Assembly: GCF_000219725.1 (NCBI RefSeq)
Contig: NC_015732.1
Location: 2,480,001-2,544,000 of the forward strand
From: Gracilinema caldarium DSM 7334
GTDB taxonomy: Bacteria; Spirochaetota; Spirochaetia; Treponematales; Breznakiellaceae
Direction: 5' to 3'
DNA length: 64,000 bases
A program made the translations under genes and the position numbers. Below are positions 2-18,595 of the stretch, one piece after another. The notes beneath the pieces are model-generated. The model made no database searches. It was not told the DNA's origin and worked only from the letters and a program-made list of their open reading frames with translations. The stretch's first letter is position 1, and each line of letters begins with the position of its first letter.

Positions 2-3000
2 CGCAGTCTCGATGGGTATGTACTGGCTAAAACCGGTTATGAAGGGGAGGAATATCAGCGCACAGAAGGGATAAGCCATGTAATGCTGGAATTCGAGAAG
101 GGTGAAGCATCATTTTCTGCGGGGATCTGCGCGGAAATTACCAAAGATACAACCCAGGTCAGGGAACTCCCCTGGATTGCCCAGGGGGTTCAGGTAAAGG
201 ATATTCCCCTCTTTCTCGATAGCACCCACCTTTTGGGATCCCAGCAGTTTAAACAGCGGATGCGAGACCTGGGCGCCCTGGTCTTTGATTCCAAAAAAGA
301 ATACCAGAAGGAACTTACCCACCTTTTGGGGGTATTCCGGCGTAATGTGGAATTCAATCCCTCTCTGGATGCCCTGGTCCGCTCGATTGGCTTTGTACCC
401 ATGGATTCGGTAAACCGTTTTGTCTGCGATTATATCCTGGAAGAGCGGATGGTAGACATCTCTGTGATGAAGAGCAACCTCCAGAGCTATAAGGATGCGG
501 AGGCCGAAGCTGAGCTTGCCATAAAAAATATTGCAGCTTTGGAGGATATCCTCGCCATAGCCAGGGTTTGGCAGCAGCATAATAGAACCATCCTGAACCA
601 GGAATATCTGCAAAAGCGACTCCAGATGGAACTGGAACAGGAACGGCTAGAGGAAAACCACAAAGAAAGCCAGCGGCTCGAAGCGGAAGAACAGCGAAAA
701 GCCGAAGAAATCCGACGCCTCCAGGAAGAGCTCGAAGCCCTGCGGGACCAGGTGAACCAGCTGAGCCTATCCATACAGACCCACCAGGTGTATCAGCTTA
801 TCCAGGATCTGGAGCGCCGCAAGAATCAGCTCTTAAAGGAGCTGGAACAGGCCCGCTCAAACCGGGAACGGTACCAAACCCTGCTAAGCCAGCTTGAAGC
901 CCTATTAAATCGGGAGCTCGAACGGGACAGGGAAGGCAATGTGGATATGGACCGCTCTGCAGAAAGCCTGGAAACGGAAAAAGAAACCCTCTACCGGAGT
1001 CTGAGCAAGAGCCAGGAAGAACGGGAAAACCTGCGCAAAGACCTGGGCGACCTGGCACGAGAACTGGAGGAACTGGAACGGGGCCTGGTCCGCTATCCTG
1101 AGGGGCCTGCAGAACTGGTATCGGCCTTAAGAGAAGAGGGTATTCAGGCATGGATATTTGCAGACCTGGTAGAAGTAGCCGATCCGGCCTGGCAGAACGC
1201 CCTGGAGGGCTGGCTTAATACCCAGCGTTTTGCGGTGCTGGTGGAACAGGAACAGTTTCAGCGGGCCATCGCCATCTATGATCGGCTTCCCCGGCAGATC
1301 GGAGGGGTTCCTCTGCCAAACCTGGAGCGGATGGCCCAAAGCGAGGTACGCCCCCACTCACTGGCAGAGCTTGTAGTGACCGATTCACCCTTTGCCCGGC
1401 GCTATGCGGACTACATCCTGGGCCGGGTTATCCGAACCGACCAGGAACACTTAAAGGACTTTGACCAGAGTGTTACCCAAACCTGTCTCACCTACTCTGC
1501 CCATACGGTAAACCGGATCCGGGAGGCGGTGTACAGCCGCTGGTATCTGGGCAAAGGGGCCCGGGAGCGCCGTAAGGCAGAACTCCTTGCCCGGCGAAAG
1601 GAACTGCAGGAAGCGCTCAGCCGGCTCGAACTATCCATCAAACTGATGGAACAACAAACGGAACTTTTAAAGCGGGCCCTGCCGGCCCTCACCGAAATGC
1701 GGTACCTTTCATCGTCCATCGCTACCATTCCCGAACTGGAGCGCAGTATTACCGAAATCTCTGAACAGATTCGCCGGGTAGACACCTCTGACCTGGAAGT
1801 ACTTCGGAATGAGCTTGATGAACGGAAGCGGACATTAGGGAGCCGGGAGGCGGCTCTTTCCCAAGCCCAGATTGCCCTGGGAAGCATTCAGGGAAGGGCA
1901 AAGACCCTGGCAGAAGCAAGGCCTCCGCTGGAGGCGTCCGCCGAAACCCGAAGAGCCCAGTTTCAAGCCTTTGTGGCGAACCGAGAGCAGTTCCTTGAGG
2001 AATGGGAAGCCTACTACAAAGAACGGGTCCACTCCCGGGAGGATCGGCAGAGCATCCTGGCCAATTATGAGGGGAGTCTGCAGGGGACCCGGAACAAACT
2101 ACAGAAAGCCCTGGAAAACTACCAGAGGGCTATTCAGAAATACAACCTTGACTGGAACGCCCTCCTTTCTCTCCTGCCAGAGGAGGCATCCGAGATCGAA
2201 GCCCTTAAGAAACGGCTCGAAGCTTCGGAACTTCCCCTCTATAAAGAAAAGATTTCCCGTGCCCGAGCTATGGCTGAAAAGCAGTTCAAGGAACACTTTG
2301 TGACCCGGCTCAACGAATATATCGAAGAAGCCCGGGAGAGTTTCCGGGAGATCAACGCTATTTTACGGAGCCTTACCTTTGGCAAGGACCAGTATCACTT
2401 TACCCTGGAAGAACGGAACGACCGGAAGGCCCAGCTGGAGGTTATCCGGAAGGCCGCGGAGATCCATGAAAATCAGGGGAGCCTCTTTGATGCATTGATC
2501 AGTGAGGGTGAGCGGGAGGCCGTAGAGGAACTATTTAACAGGATCCTTAAAAACGAACTGGACTCCTTTGAGGTCCGCCAGCTTTGCGACTACCGGACCT
2601 ACTTTACCTATGATATTCGGGTTCGGGACACCTCTGCCATGGATCCAAAAACGGGCAAGGTCCCCGAACTATCCCTATCCCGGGCGCTTAAGGAAAAGTC
2701 TGGCGGCGAATCCCAGACGCCCTACTATGTGGCTATAGCAGCGAGTATTTACCGATATTACAAGGACGATCCTGAAAACACGGTGCGCCTCGTAGTTTTT
2801 GATGAAGCCTTTAACAAAATGGATGAACGGCGCATTGGGGTTACCCTAGAACTGTTCCAGGAACTGGGAATGCAGATCATCACGGCGGTCCCCTCAGAAA
2901 AGCTCGAGATCATCCAACCCTATATGGATACGGTGAACCTGGTGCTCCGCTATGGCAATGAAGGCTGGGTTCGGGATTATAGGGCGGTGACTGTTGCGGC

Positions 3001-3019
3001 AACTACAGGATCAGAGTGA
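2..3019 (+). CDS. jetC: Wadjet SMC-like ATPase JetC (5' partial)
   Basis: The frame is open from the first codon of the window, so the N-terminus with the Walker A motif lies upstream; about 1,006 codons are visible. The visible part is mostly long charged coiled coil (roughly residues 150-320 and 500-780), interrupted by a globular hinge-like stretch near residues 360-490. It ends in an ABC head: signature KSGGESQ near residue 900 and Walker B LVVFDEAFNKMDE near residue 930. This is the layout of SMC/MukB-like condensin subunits. The jetD gene follows 13 bp after the stop, which identifies the Wadjet (Jet/Mks) family. JetC is known to be the motor that extrudes loops of circular plasmid DNA, with JetA and JetB as partners; those genes would lie upstream and are not visible. 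The Wadjet subtype cannot be decided from this part. Confidence 0.88.
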   Translation, partial: RSLDGYVLAKTGYEGEEYQRTEGISHVMLEFEKGEASFSAGICAEITKDTTQVRELPWIAQGVQVKDIPLFLDSTHLLGSQQFKQRMRDLGALVFDSKKEYQKELTHLLGVFRRNVEFNPSLDALVRSIGFVPMDSVNRFVCDYILEERMVDISVMKSNLQSYKDAEAEAELAIKNIAALEDILAIARVWQQHNRTILNQEYLQKRLQMELEQERLEENHKESQRLEAEEQRKAEEIRRLQEELEALRDQVNQLSLSIQTHQVYQLIQDLERRKNQLLKELEQARSNRERYQTLLSQLEALLNRELERDREGNVDMDRSAESLETEKETLYRSLSKSQEERENLRKDLGDLARELEELERGLVRYPEGPAELVSALREEGIQAWIFADLVEVADPAWQNALEGWLNTQRFAVLVEQEQFQRAIAIYDRLPRQIGGVPLPNLERMAQSEVRPHSLAELVVTDSPFARRYADYILGRVIRTDQEHLKDFDQSVTQTCLTYSAHTVNRIREAVYSRWYLGKGARERRKAELLARRKELQEALSRLELSIKLMEQQTELLKRALPALTEMRYLSSSIATIPELERSITEISEQIRRVDTSDLEVLRNELDERKRTLGSREAALSQAQIALGSIQGRAKTLAEARPPLEASAETRRAQFQAFVANREQFLEEWEAYYKERVHSREDRQSILANYEGSLQGTRNKLQKALENYQRAIQKYNLDWNALLSLLPEEASEIEALKKRLEASELPLYKEKISRARAMAEKQFKEHFVTRLNEYIEEARESFREINAILRSLTFGKDQYHFTLEERNDRKAQLEVIRKAAEIHENQGSLFDALISEGEREAVEELFNRILKNELDSFEVRQLCDYRTYFTYDIRVRDTSAMDPKTGKVPELSLSRALKEKSGGESQTPYYVAIAASIYRYYKDDPENTVRLVVFDEAFNKMDERRIGVTLELFQELGMQIITAVPSEKLEIIQPYMDTVNLVLRYGNEGWVRDYRAVTVAATTGSE

Positions 3020-3032
3020 TAGAGCCAGATTG

Positions 3033-4277
3033 ATGAAATACGATGAGCTCATCTTGCATGTATTTGCCGCTTCCTATCCTCGTTCTGCCATGCGCCAGGG
3101 CGGCCGGCCGCTCAGGCTTCGCCATTGGGAGCAGCTCCTGCCAGAAGCCTATGCCAGTGCCATGGAACAGGAAGGCTTTCTCCAGGCCATGGAATGGCTG
3201 GAGGCTCAAGGACTACTCCGTTTGGGCTGGGCCCACCGGCGAAAACGGGATAGGCTCCTTTGGGCGGAACTGGTTGATCCCCGGCGTCTCTATGCAAACC
3301 TGGGGCAGCCCTATCCGGATACGGTAGAAGAAGTTCTCCGGGAAACCGCCCGGGGCCTTGCCCAAAGGGCCCGGGATGCGGAGCAAGGCGATACGGAGCA
3401 GTTATTTACTGCCCTGGCCAGCTACCCATCCTTTTTAGATAGCCTGGTTTCGATCCGGGATATGGAGGACCTGTATATCCTCCTCACTAAACGGAAGGAA
3501 GGAGCATACAAAGGACCTATTCGCAGTCTTTCGGTTACCCTCTTTCGGGACTCCAAACGGCTCGAGGCCCTGCTGGGCATTCTGAAGCGTCTTACTACCC
3601 TATGTAATACACCGGACCTGCTCTTGGGCCTCCCCCGGCGCAATTTCCCCGTGGTGTGGCTTGCGGGGCCCTTCCGGCTGAGCGCAGAGGGGCCCGATAC
3701 AGAAGACCATAGCGCAGGGGCCCGACTTCTTCTAGATCTGGGCCAGAGGTCCCCTTTAATCGGAGTAGGCGCCCCCTTCGGTCTTTCTCTGGAACTTCTG
3801 GCCGGTGCCACAAAACTGGAAATCGCCGGTGCCACAGGGCGGGAAAGGGACATCAATATACTTACTATAGAAAATAAGGAAACCTTTTTTTCCCTGTGGC
3901 AGATGGAAAACCCCTTTACGGCCTATGTGTATACCAACGGCTGGCCCAACAGTGCGGTCCGACGGGTATTGGAACTGCTCCATCGGCAGGGGTACCGGCT
4001 GTACCATGCGGGAGACTTAGACCCGGAGGGGCTTGCGATCTGCCAGTACCTGCAGGATCACTACGGCAGTCGGCCCTTTGGAATGGATATGGCAACCTTT
4101 GAGCGCTACCGACCCTATGGCAGGCCCCTCTCCGACCCGGAGCTCCGTTCCCGCCGTTTTGAAAAATACCTTTCCCGACTAAACCCACCATTGCAAGACC
4201 TGGCCCGGCGCATCCAGGAAAGCCGCATCGGCATAGAGCAGGAAGTTATCGATTATAAGGAGTGTGAGATTTTGTAA
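3033..4277 (+). CDS. jetD: Wadjet nuclease subunit JetD (TOPRIM)
   Basis: Predicted to be the plasmid-cleaving nuclease of Wadjet, related to the topoisomerase VI A subunit (DUF2220/DUF2399-type). A TOPRIM core is visible: the glutamate in TIENKETF (E280) and the DLDPEG motif (D328, D330), the metal-binding acidic residues. An N-terminal winged-helix-like part precedes it (MKYDELILHVF...WEQLL...GLL). I chose the ATG at 3033 because JetD proteins usually begin near this KYDEL segment and it does not overlap jetC. A TTG at 2994 would add 13 residues and overlap jetC by 26 bp. The gene is likely co-transcribed and translationally coupled with jetC. Catalytic residues look intact. Confidence 0.87.
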   Translation: MKYDELILHVFAASYPRSAMRQGGRPLRLRHWEQLLPEAYASAMEQEGFLQAMEWLEAQGLLRLGWAHRRKRDRLLWAELVDPRRLYANLGQPYPDTVEEVLRETARGLAQRARDAEQGDTEQLFTALASYPSFLDSLVSIRDMEDLYILLTKRKEGAYKGPIRSLSVTLFRDSKRLEALLGILKRLTTLCNTPDLLLGLPRRNFPVVWLAGPFRLSAEGPDTEDHSAGARLLLDLGQRSPLIGVGAPFGLSLELLAGATKLEIAGATGRERDINILTIENKETFFSLWQMENPFTAYVYTNGWPNSAVRRVLELLHRQGYRLYHAGDLDPEGLAICQYLQDHYGSRPFGMDMATFERYRPYGRPLSDPELRSRRFEKYLSRLNPPLQDLARRIQESRIGIEQEVIDYKECEIL

Positions 4278-4350: not shown

Positions 4351-6135
4351 GTGAAAATACCGTCCCTTTCGATACGGAACAGACTTCTTTTTTCATTTCT
4401 TGCCCTCCTTTTACTCCCCGTAATAACCTTGGGGGTGGTGGGACCGTTAATTTTTTCCCGTTCAATAGAAACCCAGGTAATCGACCATACTCTGAGAATG
4501 ATTGCTCAGGTGGATAAAAATCTTGAGTATCTGATTGTAAATCTAGAAAAACTGAGTAACCTGCTAGAAGCAACCCCTTCGATTCATCAATTTTTTATGC
4601 CTTCTGCAGGGGCTCTCCAGAAAAAGTATGAACAGGAAGCCCTTGCGTTTATGGATGCTTGCCTTAAAACTCATCGGGAAATTGCAGGAATTATGCTGAT
4701 ATCTTCCGATGATCGTATTGTATCAAATCATTACACCCGTATTACCCGGGACCCTCTGACCCTGGAACCCTGGTATTTAAAAGCTGTTGGTTCTACCAGC
4801 GGGATTACCATCATATCACGCCCAATTGGACGCAATATCCGCAGCCAGCTCGGTTATGGCAGTGATGACGTGGTATCAATTGTAAAGCCAATCCGGGACC
4901 CAGACCATTTTAACCGGATTACCGGAGCCATACTTATTGATCTGAGACTGGAAAGCATCCAGGAGTTGCTCGCAGATTCTTCTCTGGGTCGGGATGGCTA
5001 CCTGTATATTTCCGATCAGAATGGAGAGCTGGTTTTTGCACCGGTAAACCAAACCATCTACCGGATCGCACCCCGGCAAATAGAGGGCTCAGAAGGGAGA
5101 ACACTCCGCCGATGTAACCATGAAGTATTTCAGATCCTGTACAAACAGTCATCCTATACCGGATGGACCACCGCTGGAGTTTTTTCGATACAAAGTGTTC
5201 TCCGCGAAGTTTCTTTTATACGGTTTTACGCCCTAATTGTTGGAAGTTTCACCGTCCTCCTGGCCATTTTGCTTTCGGTATTCTTTGCATCTTCCATAGC
5301 ACTCCCCGTAGAAAAATTGCGTAGTTTGATGCGACAGGCTGAAACGGGAGATTTCTCCATCCGGTTTTCTGAAAACCGTCAGGACGAGATCGGCCAACTC
5401 GGACACTCTTTTAATCGTATGATATTGGAAATCAGCAACCTGATCGACCAGGTATACCATGAACAACAACGGAAACGAGAGACCGAGTTACGGGTTCTGC
5501 AAGAACAGATAAAACCGCACTTCCTATACAATACCCTCGATACCATTCAATGGATGGCCCAGGAACATAGAGCCCAAGATATAGTAGACATGGTGAGCGC
5601 CTTAACCCAGCTATTTAGGGTTGGACTTTCTAAGGGTCAAGAAATGATACCTCTCCGGGAAGAACTCAGACATGTGGAAAGCTATTTATTTATCCAGAAG
5701 GTCCGATATGAGGATAAGTTTGATTACACCATTTCTATAAGCCCTGGCATTGACCAGCTACGGGTGCTCAAGGTGATTTTACAGCCCCTGGTAGAAAATG
5801 CCATTTATCATGGGATAAAGGAACGACGGGGTAAAGGGCACATCCTGGTTAGTGCTGAACGTGAGGGACCAGACCTATTCCTGACCGTGGAAGATGACGG
5901 TATTGGAATGCCAGCAGACAAACTGGCACAACTGCAGGAAGAACTAAAGTCCAGTCATCAGTTGCATACAGACAGCCATAAAGATTGGGGTGAAGGGGGG
6001 CATATCGGGTTCGGTGCCAGAAATGTCCATGAACGGATATTTTTAAATTTTGGACCCGATTATGGCATTACCTACCAAAGCACCTGGGGTGTTGGTACCC
6101 GGGTTACCATCCGACATCCAGCAATAGAAGTATAA
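4351..6135 (+). CDS. YesM/LytS-type sensor histidine kinase
   Basis: A membrane sensor kinase of 594 residues. A transmembrane segment lies at about residues 9-31, an extracytoplasmic sensor region at about 32-285, a second membrane segment at about 290-312, and a HAMP domain to about 365. The His_kinase module (PF06580 type) has phosphoacceptor H390 in EQIKPHFLYN, and the ATPase domain has N483 in PLVENAIYHG, EDDGIGMP and a GFGARNVHERI glycine-rich box. The start is GTG; no SD sequence and no nearby alternative start is present. The response regulator follows after 15 bp, and the tandem sugar-binding protein after that, so the ligand is probably a sugar presented by that protein. This resembles known three-component systems in which a binding protein signals through a LytS/YesM kinase. 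Confidence 0.9.
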   Translation: MKIPSLSIRNRLLFSFLALLLLPVITLGVVGPLIFSRSIETQVIDHTLRMIAQVDKNLEYLIVNLEKLSNLLEATPSIHQFFMPSAGALQKKYEQEALAFMDACLKTHREIAGIMLISSDDRIVSNHYTRITRDPLTLEPWYLKAVGSTSGITIISRPIGRNIRSQLGYGSDDVVSIVKPIRDPDHFNRITGAILIDLRLESIQELLADSSLGRDGYLYISDQNGELVFAPVNQTIYRIAPRQIEGSEGRTLRRCNHEVFQILYKQSSYTGWTTAGVFSIQSVLREVSFIRFYALIVGSFTVLLAILLSVFFASSIALPVEKLRSLMRQAETGDFSIRFSENRQDEIGQLGHSFNRMILEISNLIDQVYHEQQRKRETELRVLQEQIKPHFLYNTLDTIQWMAQEHRAQDIVDMVSALTQLFRVGLSKGQEMIPLREELRHVESYLFIQKVRYEDKFDYTISISPGIDQLRVLKVILQPLVENAIYHGIKERRGKGHILVSAEREGPDLFLTVEDDGIGMPADKLAQLQEELKSSHQLHTDSHKDWGEGGHIGFGARNVHERIFLNFGPDYGITYQSTWGVGTRVTIRHPAIEV

Positions 6136-6150
6136 CACGGGAAAAAAACT

Positions 6151-7365
6151 ATGTGGAAAGTACTAATCGCCGATGATGAACCTAAAATCCGCCGAGGTAT
6201 CCGTTCTGTCCTTGAGCGGCTTGATTCGGAAATTGAGGTGGTTGCCGAAGCAGGCGACGGCGAGGCGGCCCTTGCTCTGGCTGAGGAGACAATCCCGGAT
6301 ATCCTCTTTATCGATATTCGTATGCCCTTCTTAAATGGTCTTGAATTAATTGAAAAACTTTCTGGCCTTCCCCATGACTGGATTATTATTATCGTGAGCG
6401 GACACGATGAATTTGAGTATGCCAGAAAAGCAGTATCTCTTAAAGTCTTTGAGTATCTCTTAAAACCGGTACAAGAAGCTGAAATAAAAAGAACACTGGA
6501 ACACGCTAAAAATGAACTTGCCCTGCGGCGAGAAACAAATCGGTACATTAACTGGGCAAGAGAGAAAATAACTGAACACCGAAGTACTCTGCAAGAACAA
6601 TTTATTCTGGAATGGCTTTCATCATCCCTTTCGAAAACTGACATTGAAGACTGTTCCAAATTCCTGGGGCTTACCTTGCCAGAAAAAGCGGTGGTGCTTG
6701 CTATTCGGCTGGAGGAAAAGGTACTCTCAGTAGGAAGTTTGCAAGCTGGTTACCGGACCATTCTTATCTATTCAGTACAATCAATTATTCAAGAACAGTT
6801 AGGTAAGGATATAATCTGCGTAATAGATAGAGATGATACGATTATTACCCTATATCCAGGGGATCTACAAGTATTACAAAATAAGATCCTTGGCATCGAA
6901 GCCGCTATTGAAGCGACAACCCATCAACATCCAATTATAGCAGTAGTGCCCAGCGGAAATTATAGAAAAGAAGGGCATCGCACGATACAGGAATCCTATG
7001 AAGAGGCCCTATCGGAGCTGACCAAGAAGGGAAATTACCAAACCTTTGTGCTCCTGGCTCAGGGATATATCGAAAAAAACTATCAATACCCGGATTTATC
7101 ATTAGAGGAAACCGCATCGGAATTGGAAATCAGCCCAGGCTATTTGTCCCGGCTGCTTAAACAAGCAACCGGTTACTCCTTTGTAGAATATGTGAGCAGA
7201 GTTCGGATCCAGCATGCCCTGCAGTTATTAACAGATCCGGCAATAAAGATCTATGAAATTGCTGAAAAGGTAGGCTATCGTAGCCAGCATTACTTTAGCA
7301 GGGCTTTTAAACAGATACTGGGTATATCTCCCATCGAATACCGAAAGGGAGGCAGCTTACCATGA
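6151..7365 (+). CDS. YesN-type response regulator, AraC DNA-binding domain
   Basis: The N-terminal receiver domain (about residues 1-120) has acidic pocket DDE at residues 8-10 and phosphoacceptor D55 in LFIDIRMP, with the conserved K in KPV. A middle region of unknown role (about 130-300) follows. The C-terminal AraC domain (about 305-400) has two helix-turn-helix units, including SLEETASELEISPGYLSRLLK and IYEIAEKVGYRSQHYFSRAFK. It is the cognate partner of the kinase 15 bp upstream, and its stop overlaps the start of the tandem binding protein by 4 bp (ATGA). It probably activates the sugar-uptake genes downstream. Confidence 0.92.
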   Translation: MWKVLIADDEPKIRRGIRSVLERLDSEIEVVAEAGDGEAALALAEETIPDILFIDIRMPFLNGLELIEKLSGLPHDWIIIIVSGHDEFEYARKAVSLKVFEYLLKPVQEAEIKRTLEHAKNELALRRETNRYINWAREKITEHRSTLQEQFILEWLSSSLSKTDIEDCSKFLGLTLPEKAVVLAIRLEEKVLSVGSLQAGYRTILIYSVQSIIQEQLGKDIICVIDRDDTIITLYPGDLQVLQNKILGIEAAIEATTHQHPIIAVVPSGNYRKEGHRTIQESYEEALSELTKKGNYQTFVLLAQGYIEKNYQYPDLSLEETASELEISPGYLSRLLKQATGYSFVEYVSRVRIQHALQLLTDPAIKIYEIAEKVGYRSQHYFSRAFKQILGISPIEYRKGGSLP

Positions 7366-9260
7366 AACGGTATATCCAGCCTTCATTCATCCTCATTGCC
7401 CTTGGCATTATGGTCCTAGCCGTTTCCTTGCTCTGGTTTGTGAATATTCTACCCCTTATTTCATACAATAAGGTAGAGCCAGAAGTTGGCAAACTCATAG
7501 GCCTTTCACAGGCCAACCTTTCAGAACCATGGCGCATCAGCATGACGGAAGAAATAACCCAGCAGGCAAAAAAATACCTCGATATGCGGGTAATTATTAC
7601 TGATGCGGTAGATTCCAGCGAACGCCAGGTTGATGATGTGAAACGGCTCCTTGCCTATGGCATCGATCTCCTTATCATCTCGCCGACAGATTCGCAGATT
7701 CTGACCCCCGTCGTAACTGAAGCGTATAAAACTATTCCAGTGATTGTACTGGATCGGGCAGTGGAAGGCTATGATTACACCCTGTATATCGGTCCGGACA
7801 ACCAGCTCATTGGTCGCGAGACGGGTCGCTATGTCTCAGAATTATTGGGAGAAAAGGGCGGTCAGGTCTGGGAAATTCAGGGCCGCTCAGGCTCTCCGCC
7901 TACCATCGACCGAAGTACCGGTTTACGGCAGGAAATTGAGCGACATCCCGGGATCAGATTGGTCAAAACAGTCACCGCCGATTGGCTCCGGGACCAAGCT
8001 GAGGATACCCTCTCTCATTTATTTAAAACCACCCCAACGCCCGATGTCATCGTATCCCAGAATGACGCCATGGCCTATGGGGCAATTTTAGCAGCGAAGA
8101 AAGCAGCGGTTTCAAATATCAAATTCATCGGGGTAGATGGACTGGAGGGTGCCAATGGGGGCCTAGACCTGGTACGGAAGGGACTCCTATCAGCCACTTT
8201 TATTTGCCCCACCGGCGGAAAAGAAGCGGTAAACTACGCCTGGGATATTCTAGAAAAGAAACCCGGCATTCCCAAAAAAATATATTTACGCACAAGAAAG
8301 ATAACCGCCGAAACAGTTAATGCTAATGTGGATCCCTATGCGTCATTCCGGCATCCCCGCTCCAACAAGGAACCCATACGCCTCGGCTTTGCCCAGGTAG
8401 GAAGCGAAAGCCGTTGGCGGCTTACCAATACAAAATCGATAAAAGATGCGGCCCGTGACGCCGGCATTGAGCTTACCTTTATAGACGGCCAGCAAAAGCA
8501 GGAAAACCAGATTGCAGCGATCAGGTCATTTATCAAACAGAAGGTGGACATCATCGCCTTTTCACCGATTGTCGAATCAGGCTGGGAAGAGGTGCTCCAG
8601 GAAGCAAAAGCCGCAGGGATTCCGGTTATTCTTTCTGACCGGGAAGTAGATATAAAAGATGACTCCCTTTGGGCTACCTTTATCGGCTCAGATTTTCTAG
8701 AAGAGGGCCGACGGGCCGCCCGGTGGCTCCTGTCCTATATAGAACATCATCCTACCCCAGATGGTCAAGTTAATATCGTGGAACTCCAAGGGACGGTAGG
8801 TTCAGCTCCTGCCATTGACCGGAAACGGGGCTTTGAGCTAACCCTGGAACCTCATCCAGAGTTCCGCATCATCCGATCGGAAATTGCCAATTTTTATTTC
8901 GATCAGGGCCGGGATGTGATGAAAAAAATCCTTGAAACGGAAAAGAGACGGATTGATGTCCTCTTTGCCCACAATGATGATATGGCTCTGGGAGCAATTC
9001 AAACACTTGAATCAGCAGGACTGCGACCGGGAAAGGATATGGTGATCGTCTCGGTAGATGCGGTAAAGGAAGCCTTTCAGGCTATGATTGCGGGTAAACT
9101 CAACTGTACCGTGGAATGTACTCCCCTCCTGGGGCCCCAATTAATGAAAGTAATCCAGGATTATTTTGATGGAAAGGAACTACCCACCCGGATTATCACC
9201 AGTGAAGAAGTATTCCCCGCCGAGGTAGCCCGAACAGTACTGCCAAAACGTCGGTATTAA
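7362..9260 (+). CDS. Membrane-anchored tandem sugar-binding protein (two Peripla_BP domains)
   Basis: 632 residues. An uncleaved-looking N-terminal membrane segment (about 8-28) is followed by two consecutive periplasmic binding domains of the LacI/ribose-binding type. Domain A spans about residues 40-305 and domain B about 345-632. Domain B aligns by eye at roughly 60% identity with the separate binding protein encoded directly downstream: shared blocks include DAQQKQENQI-like, AFSPVVE-like, VELQGTVGSAPAIDR and NCTVEC. Domain A is more distant but keeps the fold landmarks (LIISPTD, VIVLDRAVEG, VSQNDAMAYGAI). Family binding proteins are normally single-domain and free or lipid-anchored. The gene sits between the regulator (4-bp overlap) and the transporter, so a sensing role for the kinase is likely. 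It may instead serve the transporter as a tethered receptor. A gene fusion following duplication of the downstream gene would explain it. Confidence 0.85.
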   Translation: MKRYIQPSFILIALGIMVLAVSLLWFVNILPLISYNKVEPEVGKLIGLSQANLSEPWRISMTEEITQQAKKYLDMRVIITDAVDSSERQVDDVKRLLAYGIDLLIISPTDSQILTPVVTEAYKTIPVIVLDRAVEGYDYTLYIGPDNQLIGRETGRYVSELLGEKGGQVWEIQGRSGSPPTIDRSTGLRQEIERHPGIRLVKTVTADWLRDQAEDTLSHLFKTTPTPDVIVSQNDAMAYGAILAAKKAAVSNIKFIGVDGLEGANGGLDLVRKGLLSATFICPTGGKEAVNYAWDILEKKPGIPKKIYLRTRKITAETVNANVDPYASFRHPRSNKEPIRLGFAQVGSESRWRLTNTKSIKDAARDAGIELTFIDGQQKQENQIAAIRSFIKQKVDIIAFSPIVESGWEEVLQEAKAAGIPVILSDREVDIKDDSLWATFIGSDFLEEGRRAARWLLSYIEHHPTPDGQVNIVELQGTVGSAPAIDRKRGFELTLEPHPEFRIIRSEIANFYFDQGRDVMKKILETEKRRIDVLFAHNDDMALGAIQTLESAGLRPGKDMVIVSVDAVKEAFQAMIAGKLNCTVECTPLLGPQLMKVIQDYFDGKELPTRIITSEEVFPAEVARTVLPKRRY

Positions 9261-9369
9261 TGCATTTCTCAGTGCGTTATCGTACACAAAATTATGGAAT
9301 CCTCTAAATACATATTCTCCAAGGGGTGCCACAATATTGGTATCAACGAAGCCCACAAAGGAGGCATGT

Positions 9370-10329
9370 ATGAAGAAATCCTTACAAGTTTTTGCGGGAG
9401 TGTGCGCACTCATCACCCTGGTGTCTCTGAACGCCTTTGCTCAGAGCAATAAAAAAATTGTGCTCGGGTTCTCCCAGATCGGGGCAGAAAGCGAATGGCG
9501 GACCGCCAACACCGAATCCATTAAGGCGGCTGCAGCTGCAGCGGGCATTGAACTAAAATTTGCCGATGCCCAGCAAAAGCAGGAAAACCAGATTAAAGCC
9601 ATCCGCTCCTTTATTGCCCAGAAGGTAGATGTGATCGCCTTCTCACCGGTTGTAGAAACCGGTTGGGAAACGGTGCTTCAGGAAGCCAAGCGGGCAAAAA
9701 TTCCTGTTATTCTTACTGATCGAGCAGTTAATGTCAAAGATGATAGCCTTTATGTATCCTTTATGGGATCCGACTTTGTCGAAGAAGGCAGACGTGCTGC
9801 GGTCTGGCTCATGGGCTACCTGCACACCGACAAACCAGTAAACATTGTGGAACTCCAGGGCACCGTTGGTTCTGCTCCGGCCATCGACCGTAAGCGTGGT
9901 TTTGAGGAAATGCTGAAGCCCTTCCCCAATTATAAAATCATCCGTTCCCAGACCGGTGACTTTACCCGTGCCAAGGGCAAGGAAGTCATGGAAGCGTTCC
10001 TGAAGGCAGAAGGTAAGAATATCAATGTCCTCTTTGCCCACAATGACGACATGGCAATTGGTGCCATCCAGGCTATTGAAGAATTCGGACTAAAACCCGG
10101 AAAGGATATCATCATCGTATCCATCGATGCTGTAAAGGGCGCCTTCGAAGCAATGATCGCCGGTAAACTCAATTGCACCGTGGAATGCTCTCCTCTGCTT
10201 GGAGAGCAGCTCATGGCTGCTGTTAAAGATCTGATGGCAGGAAAAACATTACCCAAACGGATCGTTACCAATGAAGGTGTATACCCCGCAGAATTTGCGG
10301 CCCAGGTATTCCCCTCCCGCAAGTACTAG
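9370..10329 (+). CDS. ytfQ: YtfQ-like sugar ABC transporter binding protein
   Basis: Periplasmic substrate-binding protein of the galactofuranose-type (YtfQ) family. A signal peptide is visible (MKKSLQVFAGVCALITLV..AFAQ, cleavage near residue 23). The mature part carries Peripla_BP_4 landmarks: GFSQIGAESEWR, QQKQENQIKAIRSF, AFSPVVETGW, SDFVEEGRRAA, NDDMAIGAI and NCTVECSPLLG. The ATG at 9370 is chosen over an upstream GTG because AAAGGAGG lies 5-6 bp before it and the signal peptide then starts correctly. A terminator hairpin directly follows the gene, which should make this product more abundant than the membrane components. Galactofuranose as ligand is inferred from the family. Confidence 0.9.
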   Translation: MKKSLQVFAGVCALITLVSLNAFAQSNKKIVLGFSQIGAESEWRTANTESIKAAAAAAGIELKFADAQQKQENQIKAIRSFIAQKVDVIAFSPVVETGWETVLQEAKRAKIPVILTDRAVNVKDDSLYVSFMGSDFVEEGRRAAVWLMGYLHTDKPVNIVELQGTVGSAPAIDRKRGFEEMLKPFPNYKIIRSQTGDFTRAKGKEVMEAFLKAEGKNINVLFAHNDDMAIGAIQAIEEFGLKPGKDIIIVSIDAVKGAFEAMIAGKLNCTVECSPLLGEQLMAAVKDLMAGKTLPKRIVTNEGVYPAEFAAQVFPSRKY

Positions 10330-10348
10330 GGCTACTTGGTAACTACAG

Positions 10349-10382
10349 GGGCGTTTCGGCGTAAACCGGAACGCCCTTTTTT
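10349..10382 (+). terminator. Intercistronic terminator/attenuator after ytfQ
   Basis: GGGCGTTTCGG at 10349-10359 pairs with CCGGAACGCCC at 10366-10376 (one G-U pair, 6-nt loop) and is followed by six T. It lies between the binding-protein gene and the ATPase gene of one operon, so partial termination here would set the usual excess of binding protein. Confidence 0.8.
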
Positions 10383-10401
10383 ATCAAAGGAGAATTACAG
10401 C

Positions 10402-11943
10402 ATGGAAAATATTGAAATTCTTTCCATGGTTAACATTTCAAAGTATTTTCCCGGAGTCAGGGCCCTTTCACAGGTTAATTTTTCCTTAAAAAGCGGAGAA
10501 ATTCATGCCCTTATGGGGCAGAATGGAGCCGGGAAATCCACATTAATAAAAATAATGACCGGAGTATATCAACCTGACTCGGGTCACATGTATCTTCGAG
10601 GGGAAAGCATAAAAGTAGAATCCCCTGAACATGCTCAGACCCTGGGAATCGCGACCGTTTACCAGGAAGTAAATCTTTGCCCCAATGTAACAGTTGCAGA
10701 GAACCTTTTGCTCGGACGAGAACCACGGAATCTCATAGGTATTAAATGGAAGCATCTTTTTGAGGAAGCCCATAAAATTATTAAAGAAAAATTGGACCTT
10801 GATCTGGACACAACAAAACCTCTTGGTTCTTACTCTCTGGCAATTCAACAAATGATCGCTATTGCCCGATCCCTCTGTGTGAAATCGGACATTTTAATAC
10901 TTGATGAACCAACTTCGAGTCTTGATGAAGCCGAAGTTGAGCGGCTGTTTTACATTTTGCGTAAGTTAAAAAATGAAGGAATGGCGATTCTCTTTATAAC
11001 TCATTTCATAGATCAGGTATATGCCGTATCCGATCGGATTACGGTTCTGCGGAACGGCGAATACATAGGAACCGCAGAGGCCTCTGCATTATCCAAACTC
11101 GAACTCATTAGCATGATGGTTGGTAAGGATCCAGCAGAACTTGCAGCAACAGCAACCAGGCAGGAAGTAAAACTTTCCCATGGTACCGAGGAGCTTCTTA
11201 AAGTTGATGGATTGGGCCGTACTGGCTATCTTAAACCCATCAACATAAGCTTAAAAAAAGGCGAAGTTCTCGGCCTGGCAGGGTTACTCGGCTCAGGACG
11301 TACGGAGACTGCAAAACTGATATTCGGGGCCGAACGGGCACTTGAAGGTAAATTATTCCGGAATGGGCAGGAAGTTGCCTTATCCGCCCCCCGGGATGCC
11401 ATTATGGTTGGAATGGGATTCTGTCCGGAGGACAGAAAAACCGAAGGCCTTATTGGCGACCTTTCCATCCGGGAGAATATCATACTCGCATTGCAGGCAA
11501 AACAGGGTATCCTAAAATACATACCCCGGAAGACTCAGGAGGAAATTGCAAATCAGTTTATTAAAGAACTGGGTATAAAGACCCCCGATGCGGAACGACC
11601 GGTCAAAACCCTATCCGGCGGCAACCAGCAGAAGGTACTACTTGCCCGATGGCTTGCAACAAAACCGGCTATACTCATTTTAGATGAACCAACCAGAGGA
11701 ATTGATGTGGCCGCCAAAAGTGAAATTCTACAACGTATTTTACAATTAAGGAATGAAGGCCTGTCGATAATATTCATTTCATCGGAGTTGGAAGAAGTAT
11801 CAGCTATCAGCGACCGGGTTGCGGTTTTCCGGGATAAAAAAAAGATTGCTGAAATAGAAGGTACTGAAATTAATGAGCATACCATTATGCGTCTTATTGC
11901 CCAGGAGGAGCTAGAAAATGAAAAACAAGTTAAAGCGAATTAA
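10402..11943 (+). CDS. ytfR: YtfR-like sugar ABC transporter ATPase (double cassette)
   Basis: ATP-binding subunit with two ABC cassettes, the RbsA/MglA/YtfR layout. Cassette 1 has Walker A GQNGAGKST and Walker B ILILDEPTSSLD. Its signature loop reads LGSYSLAIQQMIAIAR and lacks the usual LSGG, as is common in one half of this family. Cassette 2 has a degenerate P-loop (LAGLLGSGRTETAK), signature LSGGNQQK and Walker B ILILDEPTRGID. The ATG at 10402 is preferred because AAAGGAGAA precedes it and it lies after the terminator; an upstream GTG at 10336 would start before the hairpin. Its 3' end overlaps the first permease gene by 26 bp. Confidence 0.92.
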   Translation: MENIEILSMVNISKYFPGVRALSQVNFSLKSGEIHALMGQNGAGKSTLIKIMTGVYQPDSGHMYLRGESIKVESPEHAQTLGIATVYQEVNLCPNVTVAENLLLGREPRNLIGIKWKHLFEEAHKIIKEKLDLDLDTTKPLGSYSLAIQQMIAIARSLCVKSDILILDEPTSSLDEAEVERLFYILRKLKNEGMAILFITHFIDQVYAVSDRITVLRNGEYIGTAEASALSKLELISMMVGKDPAELAATATRQEVKLSHGTEELLKVDGLGRTGYLKPINISLKKGEVLGLAGLLGSGRTETAKLIFGAERALEGKLFRNGQEVALSAPRDAIMVGMGFCPEDRKTEGLIGDLSIRENIILALQAKQGILKYIPRKTQEEIANQFIKELGIKTPDAERPVKTLSGGNQQKVLLARWLATKPAILILDEPTRGIDVAAKSEILQRILQLRNEGLSIIFISSELEEVSAISDRVAVFRDKKKIAEIEGTEINEHTIMRLIAQEELENEKQVKAN

Positions 11944-12970
11944 CGACACCACCTTATTCTGGCCCTTTATGGTCCTTCTTTTATTGTTATTGATTAATGC
12001 ATTTTTAACGAAAGGATTTTTTTCAATTGAATGGAAGGATGGCCGGTTCTCCGGCATCCTTGTTGATATTCTAAATAGGTCTACCTATATCGGTATCATT
12101 GCCATTGGACTGACTCTGGTAATTTCCACCGGCGGAATCGATATATCGGTGGGATCCGTGGTTGCTATTTCCGGAGCTATTGCAGCATACCTTATCGGCG
12201 GAGAATTAATCTTGCAGGGGGACCAACAGGTACTAGTTACCCGGACCCCTATGGGAGTTGCTATTACAGCGGCTCTCTTATCCGCCCTTATTTTAGGGAT
12301 GTGGAATGGGTTTCTCGTTTCACGACTCCGAATCCAGCCAATTGTAGCTACCCTGATCCTTATGGTCGCAGGAAGGGGCATCGCCCAGCTGGTTACCAAC
12401 GGACAAATTATCACCATTTATTACAAACCTTACTATTTTATTGGAAACGGCACCTTTCTTGGCATCCCCTTTTCATTGTATATTCTGCTTGCTGTTCTGA
12501 TACTGGTCATCCTCGCAACAAGAAAGACTGCCCTGGGACTCTTTTTTGAATCGATCGGCGTGAATAGAACTGCAAGCCGTTACTCAGGAATACAGGAACA
12601 ACGGATCGTGTTCTGGTCTTATGCATTCTGTGCTTTCTGTGCCGGTGTCTCGGGGCTTCTAGTAAGTTCCAATGTAAAAAGTGCCGACGGAAACAACGCG
12701 GGAGACCTCTTTGAACTGGATGCCATTTTAGCAGTAGTTATTGGCGGTACTTCTCTAAATGGGGGCAAATTCAATCTGGCAGGCTCTATTCTCGGGGCGG
12801 TCATTATTCAGACCCTGACAACAACCATCTATTCTATCGGAGTACCGCCCCAGGTCAACTTAGTTATAAAGTCCATCGTTGTATTTTTAGTGAGCATGCT
12901 TCAGTCGGAAAACTTTAGAGCCCTGTTCCGCTTTGGCCGCAAGAGCTTTCAGATGAGAGGCGCTTTATGA
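11918..12970 (+). CDS. ytfT: YtfT-like sugar ABC transporter permease
   Basis: Membrane permease of the BPD_transp_2 (ribose/galactofuranose) family, 350 residues with about 8-10 hydrophobic segments. Family marks are GLTLVISTGGIDISVGSV near residues 65-85 and AVVIGGTSLNGGKFNLAGSILGA near residues 275-297. It overlaps the ATPase gene by 26 bp and the next permease by 4 bp (ATGA), so translation is coupled. It would form a heterodimeric channel with the second permease. Confidence 0.9.
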   Translation: MKNKLKRINDTTLFWPFMVLLLLLLINAFLTKGFFSIEWKDGRFSGILVDILNRSTYIGIIAIGLTLVISTGGIDISVGSVVAISGAIAAYLIGGELILQGDQQVLVTRTPMGVAITAALLSALILGMWNGFLVSRLRIQPIVATLILMVAGRGIAQLVTNGQIITIYYKPYYFIGNGTFLGIPFSLYILLAVLILVILATRKTALGLFFESIGVNRTASRYSGIQEQRIVFWSYAFCAFCAGVSGLLVSSNVKSADGNNAGDLFELDAILAVVIGGTSLNGGKFNLAGSILGAVIIQTLTTTIYSIGVPPQVNLVIKSIVVFLVSMLQSENFRALFRFGRKSFQMRGAL

Positions 12971-13962
12971 AACAGATTGATAGAAAACATCTGCCCTTTA
13001 TTGTCACCGTGAGTCTCTTTATTGTAATGTACAGTGCTGGTTCCATCGCCTACCCAAATTTTCTTTCAATCCAGGTGTTCATCAACCTGTTTATTGATAA
13101 TGCCTTTTTAGGGATTGCGGCGGTAGGCATGACCTTTGTCATCCTATCTGGCGGGATTGATCTGTCTATGGGATCCGTAGTTGCCTTAGTCACGATGATC
13201 TCCGCGGACCTGCTGCGAAAGGATGTGCCACCGGCGGTGGTGATCCCGGTGGTACTTCTTGCAGCTTCCGGTATTGGACTCTTTCAGGGTATCATGATCC
13301 AGTTTTTTAAGGTGCAACCCTTTATCGCAACCCTGGCGGGGATGTTCTTTGCCCGGGGAGCTTGCTACCTCATCAGCATAGATACCATCAATATTGAAAA
13401 TGATTGGTATCGGGATGTTAGCATGGCTGCTATAGAGTTGCCAACCGGCGATTTTATTTCAGTTAACGTCTTGATTTTTGTAGTCTTTGCCATAGTCGGA
13501 TGGTGGTTACTGCGCTTTACCCGTTTCGGAAGAACCGTTTATGCCATAGGGGGTTCGGAGCAATCGGCCCTACTCATGGGCTTGCCAGTTAATCGAACCA
13601 AAGTTTTAATTTATACCTTTAATGGCTTTTGTTCAGGCCTGGCAGGCATTGTGTTTACTTTTTATATGCTTTCCGGGTATGCACTTCACTGCAAGGACCT
13701 GCACATGGATGCCATTGCAGCGGTCGTCATGGGCGGAACCCTTTTAACTGGCGGCGTCGGATCCATTGGCGGCTCTATCATGGGGGTTCTGATTCTAGGA
13801 ACCATCCAGACCATCATCAATTTCCAGGGAACCTTAAGTTCCTGGTGGACCCGAATTGTGGTGGGCATCCTAATATTTGCATTTATATTGATGCAAAGCC
13901 TTTTGAATCGGCCTATGAAAGTTACCAATAAGAACAGCAAACAAGAACAAAACGCAGCCTAA
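12967..13962 (+). CDS. yjfF: YjfF-like sugar ABC transporter permease
   Basis: Second BPD_transp_2 permease, 331 residues. It carries the same paired motifs (GMTFVILSGGIDLSMGSVVAL and AVVMGGTLLTGGVGSIGGSIMG) and about 8-10 membrane segments. It starts inside the 3' end of the first permease gene and is the last gene of the operon; a strong terminator follows 5 bp after the stop. Confidence 0.9.
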   Translation: MKQIDRKHLPFIVTVSLFIVMYSAGSIAYPNFLSIQVFINLFIDNAFLGIAAVGMTFVILSGGIDLSMGSVVALVTMISADLLRKDVPPAVVIPVVLLAASGIGLFQGIMIQFFKVQPFIATLAGMFFARGACYLISIDTINIENDWYRDVSMAAIELPTGDFISVNVLIFVVFAIVGWWLLRFTRFGRTVYAIGGSEQSALLMGLPVNRTKVLIYTFNGFCSGLAGIVFTFYMLSGYALHCKDLHMDAIAAVVMGGTLLTGGVGSIGGSIMGVLILGTIQTIINFQGTLSSWWTRIVVGILIFAFILMQSLLNRPMKVTNKNSKQEQNAA

Positions 13963-14010: not shown

Positions 14011-16200
14011 TTATTCAGCTCTAAACCTGAAAATAATGCTTTGATTTTCCTGTAAAGGATAGGGTAATAATAACCCCACCTGCATTAATTCTTCTCCCCA
14101 AAATACTTTCCCATCGCCTAACAGTCTGTATTTATAGTTTGATTGTAATCCCTTCAATCGCACTATTCTGAAAACATCATTTGCTTCAGTTCGTAATAAT
14201 ACAAAGGTTACCAATACTTCTCGTTTATCCTTTGATACGTAGCTCCATGAAGTGTACACTAAAGGGAACTCTTCATTATCTAATCGATATAGATCACCAA
14301 ATTGTACAAGAGGGCGTATCTCTTTATAAAATGATACCTGTTCTTTAATTTCTGTTTTATCTGCTTCAGTTAGTCTTGTTAAATCTAATTCATAACCAAA
14401 ATTGCCTGCCATTGCTACCGCACCACGCAACGATAAGGGGACAACTCTTCCGGTCTGATGATTTGGTACAGTGGAGACATGGGCTCCCATAGTAATTGCG
14501 GGATATGGGATAGTTGTACCCTTTTGGATATAAATCCTAGAAATTGCATCTGTATTATCACTGGTCCATGTCTGAGGCATATAATACAACATGCCCGGAT
14601 CAAACCGTCCGCCACCTCCAGAACAACTTTCAAAAAGAATATCTGGAAATGAAGAGGTAATCCGTTCTAATATTTCATAGAGGCCAAGAACATAACGATG
14701 AGAGATTTCACCTTGTTGAGAGGAAGAAAACGCAGATGAACCGATCTCAGTTAAATGTCTATTCATATCCCATTTAACATACGATATTGGAGCACTGCTT
14801 AAAACCATCGTGATTGTTTCAATTATATACTCTCTTACTTCGCGACGTGTCAAATCGAGCACTAACTGGTTCCGTCCTTCGGAACGTGAACGATTGGGAA
14901 CATGCAGACACCAATCTGGATGCGTTTTATATAATCTACTTTCAACAGATACCATCTCTGGCTCTACCCAAATACCAAATTTCATGCCAAGCTTGTTGAT
15001 CTCTTCAGCTAAAGTTTTTAACCCGCCTGGTAATTTGTGTTTATCAGGAAACCAATCACCAAGAGAGCGTTTATCATCTTTTCTGTTGTCAAACCAGCCA
15101 TCATCGAGAACAAATAATTCTATTCCGAGAGGGGCTGCCTCTTTTGCAAGAGAGACTAATTTATCTTCGTTAAAATCGAAGTAGGTACCTTCCCAATTAT
15201 TAATGAGTATCGGACGAACCGTATCACGGTATTTTCCCCGGCACAAACGTTTCCGATATAAATCATGAAATGTCCGGGACATGTCTCCCAAACCGTTTCT
15301 ACTATAAACCATTACAACTTCTGGTGTCTGGAATTGTTCCCCCGGATTTAAAACCCAATTAAAATTCAGCGGGTTAATTCCCATCATAACTCGTATCATT
15401 TCAAATTGATCTACTTCTACCTGAGCAAGGAAATTGCCTGAATAAACCAGATTAAAACCAAAAACTTCACCGTGGTCTTCATCAGCATCAGGAGAAAGAA
15501 TAGCAATAAATGGGTTCTGTTGATGACTACTGGTTCCTCGACGACTTTCTATGGATTGCATTCCTGGAACCAGAGATCGGGTATATATATGACGTTCACG
15601 GCAGTGGGCCCCTGATAGCTGTAAGAGCTTATACTTTTTATTGGGAAAATCAAGACTAAAACTCATTGTTTGTAATAAGGAGATGCAATTTTCTGAATCA
15701 TTTATAAATCTGACATTTCTTGTAATGACATCAAATTCATTCCAAACTGTATATGAAAGAATACAACGCAATCTTCCTACTGGATCAAATAGAATAATTT
15801 CCAGCGTGTCTGCTTCTTGATTATTTTCTATATATGTACCAGGCAATTTATCTAAACCTGGTTTCCCTTTTATAATACGATATTCTTTATACCATAAGTC
15901 AGCAACTCTGCTGCCATCTTGATACTGAATTGTATAGGCTGGCGAGCGAAAATCTGTTCTTCCATATCCAGGATATTCTTGTGGTAATGTATCTAAAGAA
16001 AAAGTCCTGTCATCCGGTTCAGGATTAGGAGAAAACGAGCGATCTATAAACTGTAATGAATACGACCCATTCCATTCTTGCAAGATACTATACCAACCAA
16101 GATGCGCAACATATTTTCCACGAACAATCTGAATAATATAACTTGAATGTATGGTTTTTAGATGAAACACGTTATGCTCAGGCGAATAGGTAATACTCAT
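14011..16200 (-). CDS. Alpha-galactosidase, GH36
   Basis: Hydrolyses terminal alpha-galactosyl residues of oligosaccharides such as melibiose or raffinose; cytoplasmic, as no signal peptide is seen. About 729 residues. An N-terminal beta-sandwich domain is followed by the GH36 barrel with LFVLDDGWF, GIWVEPEMVS and the nucleophile aspartate in VKWDMNRHLTE. The CSGGGGRFDPGML loop and the likely acid/base aspartate in WTSDNTDA lie further on; the 70-residue spacing between the two aspartates fits the family. The ATG at 16200 is chosen because AAGAGGAA precedes it and the protein then begins MSITYSPEHN; an upstream in-frame ATG at 16236 has no SD. It is the last gene of the minus-strand importer operon, so imported sugars are probably galactosides. 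Confidence 0.93.
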   Translation of the reverse strand: MSITYSPEHNVFHLKTIHSSYIIQIVRGKYVAHLGWYSILQEWNGSYSLQFIDRSFSPNPEPDDRTFSLDTLPQEYPGYGRTDFRSPAYTIQYQDGSRVADLWYKEYRIIKGKPGLDKLPGTYIENNQEADTLEIILFDPVGRLRCILSYTVWNEFDVITRNVRFINDSENCISLLQTMSFSLDFPNKKYKLLQLSGAHCRERHIYTRSLVPGMQSIESRRGTSSHQQNPFIAILSPDADEDHGEVFGFNLVYSGNFLAQVEVDQFEMIRVMMGINPLNFNWVLNPGEQFQTPEVVMVYSRNGLGDMSRTFHDLYRKRLCRGKYRDTVRPILINNWEGTYFDFNEDKLVSLAKEAAPLGIELFVLDDGWFDNRKDDKRSLGDWFPDKHKLPGGLKTLAEEINKLGMKFGIWVEPEMVSVESRLYKTHPDWCLHVPNRSRSEGRNQLVLDLTRREVREYIIETITMVLSSAPISYVKWDMNRHLTEIGSSAFSSSQQGEISHRYVLGLYEILERITSSFPDILFESCSGGGGRFDPGMLYYMPQTWTSDNTDAISRIYIQKGTTIPYPAITMGAHVSTVPNHQTGRVVPLSLRGAVAMAGNFGYELDLTRLTEADKTEIKEQVSFYKEIRPLVQFGDLYRLDNEEFPLVYTSWSYVSKDKREVLVTFVLLRTEANDVFRIVRLKGLQSNYKYRLLGDGKVFWGEELMQVGLLLPYPLQENQSIIFRFRAE

Positions 16201-16221
16201 ATTTATTCCTCTTATTGCGTT

Positions 16222-16271
16222 TTTATAAAAATACACGTACTCCTTAAATGTAAAGAGAAGTACGTGTATTT
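16222..16271 (-). terminator. Hairpin between binding-protein gene and alpha-galactosidase
   Basis: An inverted repeat of about 13 bp (AAATACACGTACT near 16229-16241 with AGTACGTGTATTT at 16259-16271) is followed, in the minus direction, by TTTTTATAAAAA. It can act as an attenuator or mRNA-stabilising structure between the two genes. Confidence 0.6.
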
Positions 16272-16283
16272 GTTTCTGATTAT

Positions 16284-17636: not shown

Positions 17637-17692
17637 AAGCTTCTCCTCCAAAACCATATGTTATTCCAAGGGCCAGGCCCGGAATTTTCGAT

Positions 17693-18595
17693 TTAGCGGA
17701 ACCCCGAAAAACCAATCGAATCTACTATTTTTCTTCCAAAAAGAATGAAAATACCGAAGGTAGGTATCATAGCCAGAGTAGTCCCTGCCATCATACCGCT
17801 CCAATCAGGCTGTCCTTGCGGTGTTTGCAACCGGAAAATTGCAAGCGCAACGGTAAGGGTTCGTATACTTTCTTTTTTACCCACAATTAGTGGCCACATA
17901 TAATCATTCCATGCAGTGATAAAGGTGATTACCGCTAAAGTTGTCAGTGCAGTAGTACTAATCGGAAGAATTACCTCAATAAATGTTTTCAAGTATCCAG
18001 CCCCATCAAGGTAGGCAGCTTCTTCCAATTCCTTGTTAATACGCAAAAAGAATTGTCTCAGAAAGAAAACGGCAAAAGGGGTCATCAGCAATGTTGGTGC
18101 CATAATCCCCCAATAAGAATTTAATAAGCCTAATTGCTTTACAAGGATAAAATTGGGAAGCATAGTGACAATCCCTGGTATCATCAAAGTAGAGACATAG
18201 AGACTAAACAAATTATCACGAAATCTGAAATGCAGGCGGGCAAACGCATAGGCTGCCATAGAAGAAAATAAAACTTGAAAAAAGGTAACCCCTATTGAAA
18301 CCAGAAATGAGTTATAAATATTTAAGAAGAAATTTACCTTCTGGCCGGAACCACCCATTTTTATTGCTGTTTCAGAATCAATTAATCCCAAAACGCGGGC
18401 ATAATTTAACAAAGTAGCATGAGGTGGCCATAGTGCGGTAGGATTTGCAAAAACAGATTGTTGTGGTGCTACGGATGTTCGAAAAACCCAATAAAATGGA
18501 AAAAGGGTTAAAAATAGAAATAAAACTACTATTATAAATACTGCCATTTTATATAACATGTTCGTTCTTTGGTTGATTGATAAGGAGTTCTTCAT
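17693..18595 (-). CDS. MalG-like sugar ABC permease
   Basis: Permease of the carbohydrate uptake-1 family, 300 residues, about six membrane segments. The inner-membrane ATPase-coupling loop EEAAYLDGAGYLKTFIEVILP is clear, and the C-terminal part is MalG-like (TFITAWNDYMWPLIV). An AAAGGAAT ribosome site lies before the ATG. It starts 12 bp after the stop of the other permease gene. Confidence 0.9.
   Translation of the reverse strand: MKNSLSINQRTNMLYKMAVFIIVVLFLFLTLFPFYWVFRTSVAPQQSVFANPTALWPPHATLLNYARVLGLIDSETAIKMGGSGQKVNFFLNIYNSFLVSIGVTFFQVLFSSMAAYAFARLHFRFRDNLFSLYVSTLMIPGIVTMLPNFILVKQLGLLNSYWGIMAPTLLMTPFAVFFLRQFFLRINKELEEAAYLDGAGYLKTFIEVILPISTTALTTLAVITFITAWNDYMWPLIVGKKESIRTLTVALAIFRLQTPQGQPDWSGMMAGTTLAMIPTFGIFILFGRKIVDSIGFSGFR

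Follow-up and report, generated by a model that had tools for sequence, protein, structure and literature searches.

The locus described here lies in a window of 64,000 nucleotides from Gracilinema caldarium DSM 7334, in which a gene cassette is read from the forward strand. Its first gene (4351–6135) encodes a YesM-type sensor kinase, for which the domain search, an AlphaFold model and Foldseek give a dCache_1 sensor region (residues 37–276) followed by HAMP, His_kinase and HATPase_c domains. The model of the sensor region fits dCache structures, and the closest solved matches found by Foldseek include amino-acid receptors. The open reading frame at 6151–7365 encodes, according to the domain search, a YesN-type response regulator with a receiver and an AraC-type helix-turn-helix domain; the pair is thus of the LytS/YesM (His_kinase, PF06580) and YesN/AraC types. 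The ATG of the next gene (7362–9260) overlaps the regulator stop by 4 bp, and its open reading frame of 632 amino acids contains two Peripla_BP_4 stretches. We refer to its product as the double protein.

The importer genes follow. A free YtfQ-like binding protein is encoded at 9370–10329; its open reading frame is listed from 9337, and the most likely start, judging from the sequence, is the ATG at 9370, which stands after the conserved AAAGGAGG. Next come a YtfR-like ABC ATPase (10336–11943, as listed from the first TTG, the real start being probably later), a YtfT-like permease recognised by domain search (11918–12970) and a YjfF-like permease scoring above the NCBIfam cut-off (12967–13962). 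A strong terminator-like hairpin of 13 pairs followed by a T-run occupies positions 10347–10378 (+), between the binding-protein and ATPase genes, and it could reduce the expression of the ATPase and permeases relative to that of the binding protein. Convergent with the cassette, on the reverse strand at 14011–18595, are genes for a GH36 alpha-galactosidase (14011–16236), an SBP_bac_1-type sugar-binding protein (16284–17657) and an apparent permease.

The AlphaFold2 model of the double protein (pLDDT 86.9, pTM 0.80) shows an N-terminal helix and then two complete periplasmic-binding folds, approximately residues 44–323 and 340–632, joined by a linker of low confidence. In detail, the membrane helix spans residues 7–34 (7380–7463), the first domain, D1, residues 44–323 (7491–8330), the poorly conserved linker residues 324–339 (8331–8378), and the second domain, D2, residues 340–632 (8379–9257). 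The protein has no lipobox, because there is not a single cysteine in residues 1–70. A plain membrane helix is also found in Bacilli and Clostridium, and many Negativicutes, as well as L031 and L041, have a lipobox; as far as the sequences tell, the membrane tether is conserved along two routes, one being a transmembrane helix and the other a lipoprotein signal. Apart from the single N-terminal helix and the two folds, the chain contains neither a kinase domain nor a permease domain. Thus, the sequence-only reading, which described two binding-protein domains behind an N-terminal membrane anchor and a 4-bp overlap with the regulator gene, was accurate on these points.

The two domains have different relatives. 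D2 and the free binding protein encoded alongside are 66% identical, a little above the roughly 60% put forward in the sequence-only reading, whose claim of close likeness stands; D1 is divergent, as that reading also had it, sharing 28% identity with D2. The best solved relatives of D2 are YtfQ/GafA proteins, which bind galactofuranose and arabinofuranose (PMC10191376). Among solved structures, D1 comes closest to the sensor domain of BT1754 (185 bits, against 115 for the runner-up), in agreement with Foldseek; fructose is the ligand of that domain (PMC3404733). A maximum-likelihood tree unites all D1 domains in one clade (100/95) adjoining BT1754 (100/100), and D2, the free proteins and YtfQ make up a separate clade (99/96), in which D2 is not set apart from the free binding proteins as a clade of its own. 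When two rhizobial relatives are added, the D1 clade stands at 100/99 and the join between D1 and BT1754 falls to 90/76. At least one rhizobial D1 relative (L181) adjoins ATPase and permease genes, and some of these relatives look like ordinary importer proteins. The proposal that D1 is exclusively sensory by ancestry was therefore weakened once the rhizobial relatives entered the tree; from its sequence, D1 is likely, though not certain, to descend from a sensor. A recent internal duplication is ruled out by the 28% identity and the separate clades, and the description of the protein as a duplicated sensor has to be corrected. D1 comes from another subfamily, of the BT1754/rhizobial type, so that two subfamilies are fused in one chain.

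The homologue set comprises 37 distinct full-length proteins from Spirochaetota, Negativicutes, Clostridia, Bacilli and Lachnospiraceae; L156, at a contig end, and L036 were left out. In L036, a metagenome-assembled genome (MAG), the gene (6699–9875, +) passes from one reading frame to another near residue 200, which could reflect an error in sequencing or a disrupted gene. Among named genomes, those of Pelosinus, Bacillus, Gracilibacillus, Neobacillus, Clostridium, Butyrivibrio and spirochaete MAGs proved to encode full-length relatives. In the genome sampling, with E-value limits of 1e-80 to 1e-130 and counting full-length matches, the double protein was present in 2 of 296 Spirochaetota, 9 of 206 genomes from the family of Clostridium thailandense, 3 of 348 from the order of Gracilibacillus, 17 of 200 from the class of Pelosinus (including one truncated at a contig end) and 4 of 299 from the family of the Butyrivibrio MAG. 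Close relatives contributed further double proteins (G1353, G1355 and G1364). A 1025-aa frame in G1364, considered as a second tandem fusion, proved to be the same double protein in an over-extended open frame. The same genome has an extra response-regulator gene with a weak receiver domain (L177:11346–12659, −), which adjoins the cassette kinase. A search of a phage collection gave weak matches in unannotated records.

The linkage to the two-component genes is invariant. The double-protein gene lies directly 3′ of the regulator gene in 34 of the 37 loci and of the kinase gene in the other three, and nowhere else; the 4-bp overlap recurs in 21 of the 34 regulator-adjacent homologues. In L173, one of the kinase-adjacent cases, the regulator gene lies upstream, ahead of the binding-protein gene. 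Bacilli have the free binding-protein gene before the kinase gene, with the double protein still found behind the regulator, and in Lachnospiraceae the double protein comes after the kinase gene, downstream of the importer genes. Importer genes are present on the retrieved piece in 32 of the 37 loci, many of the pieces being short. Because the same architecture and position recur in 37 distinct homologues, the fusion is neither a chance event nor an assembly error. The association with a YesMN pair that had been suggested from the window is thus borne out, and neither of the findings that would have spoken against it, homologues free of kinases or an artefactual fusion, turned up among the 37.

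The stretch that separates the double-protein gene from the transporter gene after it contains a 29-bp element that is conserved in four lineages, with the consensus TATAAGAAATTACTGATTATTCTAAATAC, followed about 17–18 nt on by what is mostly TATAAT. The copy in the window is the candidate regulator site TACACAAAATTATGGAATCCTCTAAATAC at 9283–9311 (+), which consists of two direct half-sites 17 bp apart, ahead of the transporter genes. Eighteen nucleotides past it is a −10-like box, CACAAT (9330–9335, +), with four of the six consensus bases; most relatives have TATAAT. Direct half-sites at this distance beside a −10 box have the geometry that would be expected of an AraC-type activator overlapping the −35 region.

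A matrix built without spirochaetes ranked 9283–9311 first in the 64-kb window, with a score of 19.8 and a runner-up at 9.1. In 100 shuffled windows, the best score per window averaged 6.9 and reached a maximum of 19.0, as against 19.8 for the real site, the window copy being among the weaker ones; the copy in L031, which is outside the matrix set, scores 33.4. Across the whole genome, a degenerate pattern written from the known copies is matched exactly at one place, 9283–9311. This single match suggests a small regulon and would make a reporter assay simple. In Bacilli with the binding-protein gene upstream of the kinase, a second copy of the site stands ahead of that gene.

Upstream of the kinase genes there is no comparable copy, the window having there a weak match of 4.4, and autoregulation of the kinase unit through this site was accordingly discarded. 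The matrix scan of the window also gave no match ahead of the convergent genes at 14011–18595, and control of the GH36 gene by the element was likewise set aside. The element was not found in the Lachnospiraceae cassettes or in L036, and in a sigma-70 scan promoter-like sites were no more frequent than in shuffles. Since the conserved site precedes the transporter genes and not the kinase, the double protein belongs to the regulatory unit. This evidence, a site on the importer side with no counterpart ahead of the kinase, favours a sensor role for the double protein over a transporter role, which is what the sequence-only reading had anticipated. An importer-type YtfQ protein is free, has a single domain and is encoded inside the importer unit; the double protein is tethered, has two domains and is encoded upstream of the importer promoter site.

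What kind of sensor might this be? To our knowledge, the binding proteins that work with such kinases are single domains. With the systems of the XylFII–LytSR and CuaDSR kind, the cassettes share a dedicated binding-protein gene beside the kinase or regulator gene (37/37) and the additional presence of the importer's own binding protein. XylFII–LytSR of Clostridium beijerinckii, which responds to D-xylose, likewise has a dedicated type-I sugar-binding protein, separate from that of the importer; its partners are a kinase of the LytS/YesM type and a regulator, and the importer encoded alongside belongs to the same class. However, it has a single binding domain where the double protein has two complete folds, and XylFII binds the periplasmic region of LytS, a four-helix bundle (PMC9769921), whereas dCache_1 was found in all nine partner kinases from the nine loci with aligned kinases. 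The analogy with XylFII–LytSR, drawn in the sequence-only reading, is therefore right in outline but does not extend to the sensor region of the kinase.

CuaDSR of Ruminiclostridium cellulolyticum, a cellobiose system, also has a second, sensor-dedicated binding protein, a class-I kinase and a YesN/AraC-type regulator, and the importer next to it is under its control (PMC10384115, PMC5663094). CuaD, unlike the importer's CuaA, binds the kinase CuaS at its extracellular region; CuaD is, however, a single disaccharide-binding protein, and the extracellular region of its kinase was modelled as helices with no predicted domain (PMC10384115). In BT1754 of Bacteroides thetaiotaomicron, the protein with the solved sensor domain nearest to D1, one binding domain is fused directly to a hybrid kinase. 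The known members of the YtfQ/GafA family, to which D2 belongs and which serves the same importer class, are free single-domain importer components, and the survey of this family makes no mention of two-component systems (PMC10191376). Two binding domains do occur together elsewhere: BvgS-type kinases carry both Venus-flytrap domains in the kinase chain (PMC4352136) and GlnPQ-type importers carry both on the permease (PMC8025302), whereas here they form a separate tethered protein. In the open-access literature, we found BvgS, GlnPQ, CdgH and single-domain systems, and no description of a separate tethered tandem protein of two subfamilies acting with a dCache kinase.

Taken together, we consider it probable that the cassette encodes a three-component sugar sensor of the XylFII–LytSR/CuaDSR kind, in which a tandem co-receptor from two subfamilies works with a dCache kinase. 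We propose that the double protein is an extracytoplasmic co-receptor, held at the membrane by its N-terminal helix, that captures a monosaccharide. Closure of one or both domains would alter its docking on the dCache region of the kinase, which would then change the phosphorylation of the regulator. The regulator, in turn, would bind the direct half-site pair at 9283–9311, overlapping the −35 region, and activate the binding-protein, ATPase and permease genes, leading to import of the sugar. We infer the docking on the kinase, the identities of the ligands, the binding of the regulator at 9283–9311, the direction of control and the benefit of having two domains. A type-I binding protein acts on a kinase in LuxP–LuxQ as well; there, the ligand is an autoinducer, the binding domain is single, and the hybrid kinase has a tandem PAS/Cache-like periplasmic region. 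This pair may be the nearest mechanistic model for the proposed docking.

As to the ligands, D2 would probably bind L-arabinose or D-galactose in the furanose form, and D1 a related sugar, possibly a different one. The pocket of D2 is of the GafA type. Secreted GH43 enzymes adjoin the cassettes in L033 and L172, GH2 enzymes those in L033 and L034, and the GH36 alpha-galactosidase that of the window. These neighbouring enzymes and the D2 pocket would fit arabinose- or galactose-containing plant polymers, without settling the ligand. We take the sugar-contact positions of ribose-binding protein, mapped by alignment onto D1 and D2, to define the pocket equivalents. In D2, W352, R353, D426, R427, R487, N538, D566 and E585 are each kept in 37/37 homologues, as are W57, S107 and D259 in D1. 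Other D1 positions vary more than those of D2: at N234, 25 homologues have N and 12 have S, and at D131, 32 have D and 5 have G. In overall conservation, D1 and D2 are equal across the 37 homologues. The pocket residues kept in both domains would permit the comparison of two ligands or two occupancy states that the sequence-only reading put forward as a possibility.

The second domain could provide for two ligands, for higher affinity or a wider range, or for a division of tasks in which D1 faces the kinase and D2 reports the importer's substrate. It is tempting to propose that the BT1754-type and YtfQ-type domains of one tethered co-receptor recognise different sugars, or the same sugar in different forms, and that both signal to a single dCache kinase, importer expression then being set by the combination or ratio of the two ligands; we advance this tentatively, at somewhat less than even chances. 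A narrower form of the three-component sensor responds to a single ligand, one domain being structural, for example D1 as a kinase-facing scaffold and D2 as the sugar reporter, with no second input gained from the tandem. We regard this as possible rather than probable: the lesser uniformity at N234 and D131 speaks for it, as does L169 of the same genome, where a single YtfQ-like lipoprotein is encoded beside a kinase–regulator pair, while the invariance of W57, S107 and D259 and the equal conservation of the two domains speak against a merely structural D1. A co-receptor of two binding subfamilies, conserved with kinase, regulator, importer and candidate operator across lineages, would be a self-contained system for testing signal integration at the receptor level, and it could serve as a pentose- or hexose-responsive genetic part.

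Alternatively, the double protein might be a second, tethered binding protein of the neighbouring importer, feeding the same permease in the manner of the GlnPQ tandem domains, its adjacency to the kinase being a matter of operon history. The close identity of D2 to the importer's free binding protein and the importer genes in 32/37 loci, many on short pieces, speak for this account. Nevertheless, we find it unlikely, given that the conserved promoter site separates the double-protein gene from the importer genes, that a dedicated free binding protein is also present, and that the two genes go separate ways in other lineages: in Bacilli the free binding protein sits before the kinase with its own copy of the site and the double protein behind the regulator, and in Lachnospiraceae the importer genes come first, then the kinase gene and the double protein behind it.

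Small ligands are often bound by dCache domains themselves. That the dCache region senses the ligand itself, with the double protein merely concentrating sugar at the membrane or modulating the response without docking, would suit the amino-acid receptors among its closest solved matches and the finding that CuaSR kept responding without its binding protein (PMC10384115), but we think it very unlikely, for it leaves unexplained the strictness of the linkage to the regulator and the translational overlap with it, across several lineages, as well as the two-route tether.

Other arrangements of binding proteins and kinases occur in the same genome. At L164, L166 and L167 (approximately 31–40 kb, 2053–2061 kb and 2251–2260 kb), the kinase gene is preceded by one for a tethered single-domain binding protein, a second binding protein is encoded immediately behind the regulator, and a third goes with the transporter; Pfam gives no sensor domain for the kinases of these loci. 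The double protein may meet, in a single chain, the demand for two binding domains that these operons also face, although the tree does not derive it from their binding proteins. At L169 (5596–9712, approximately 2595.6–2599.7 kb), the gene for the YtfQ-like lipoprotein, a single-domain counterpart of D2, overlaps the kinase gene, and the regulator gene follows. At L171 (5189–7543, approximately 348 kb), a LacI-type binding-protein domain is in one chain with a HisKA_3/HATPase kinase, with the regulator gene next, which is a fused form of the same idea. Finally, the left edge of the window (83–4277, +) has two genes with matches to JetC and JetD, components of a Wadjet-type defence system; the beginning of the JetC gene, like any JetA and JetB, falls outside the window or at its edge.
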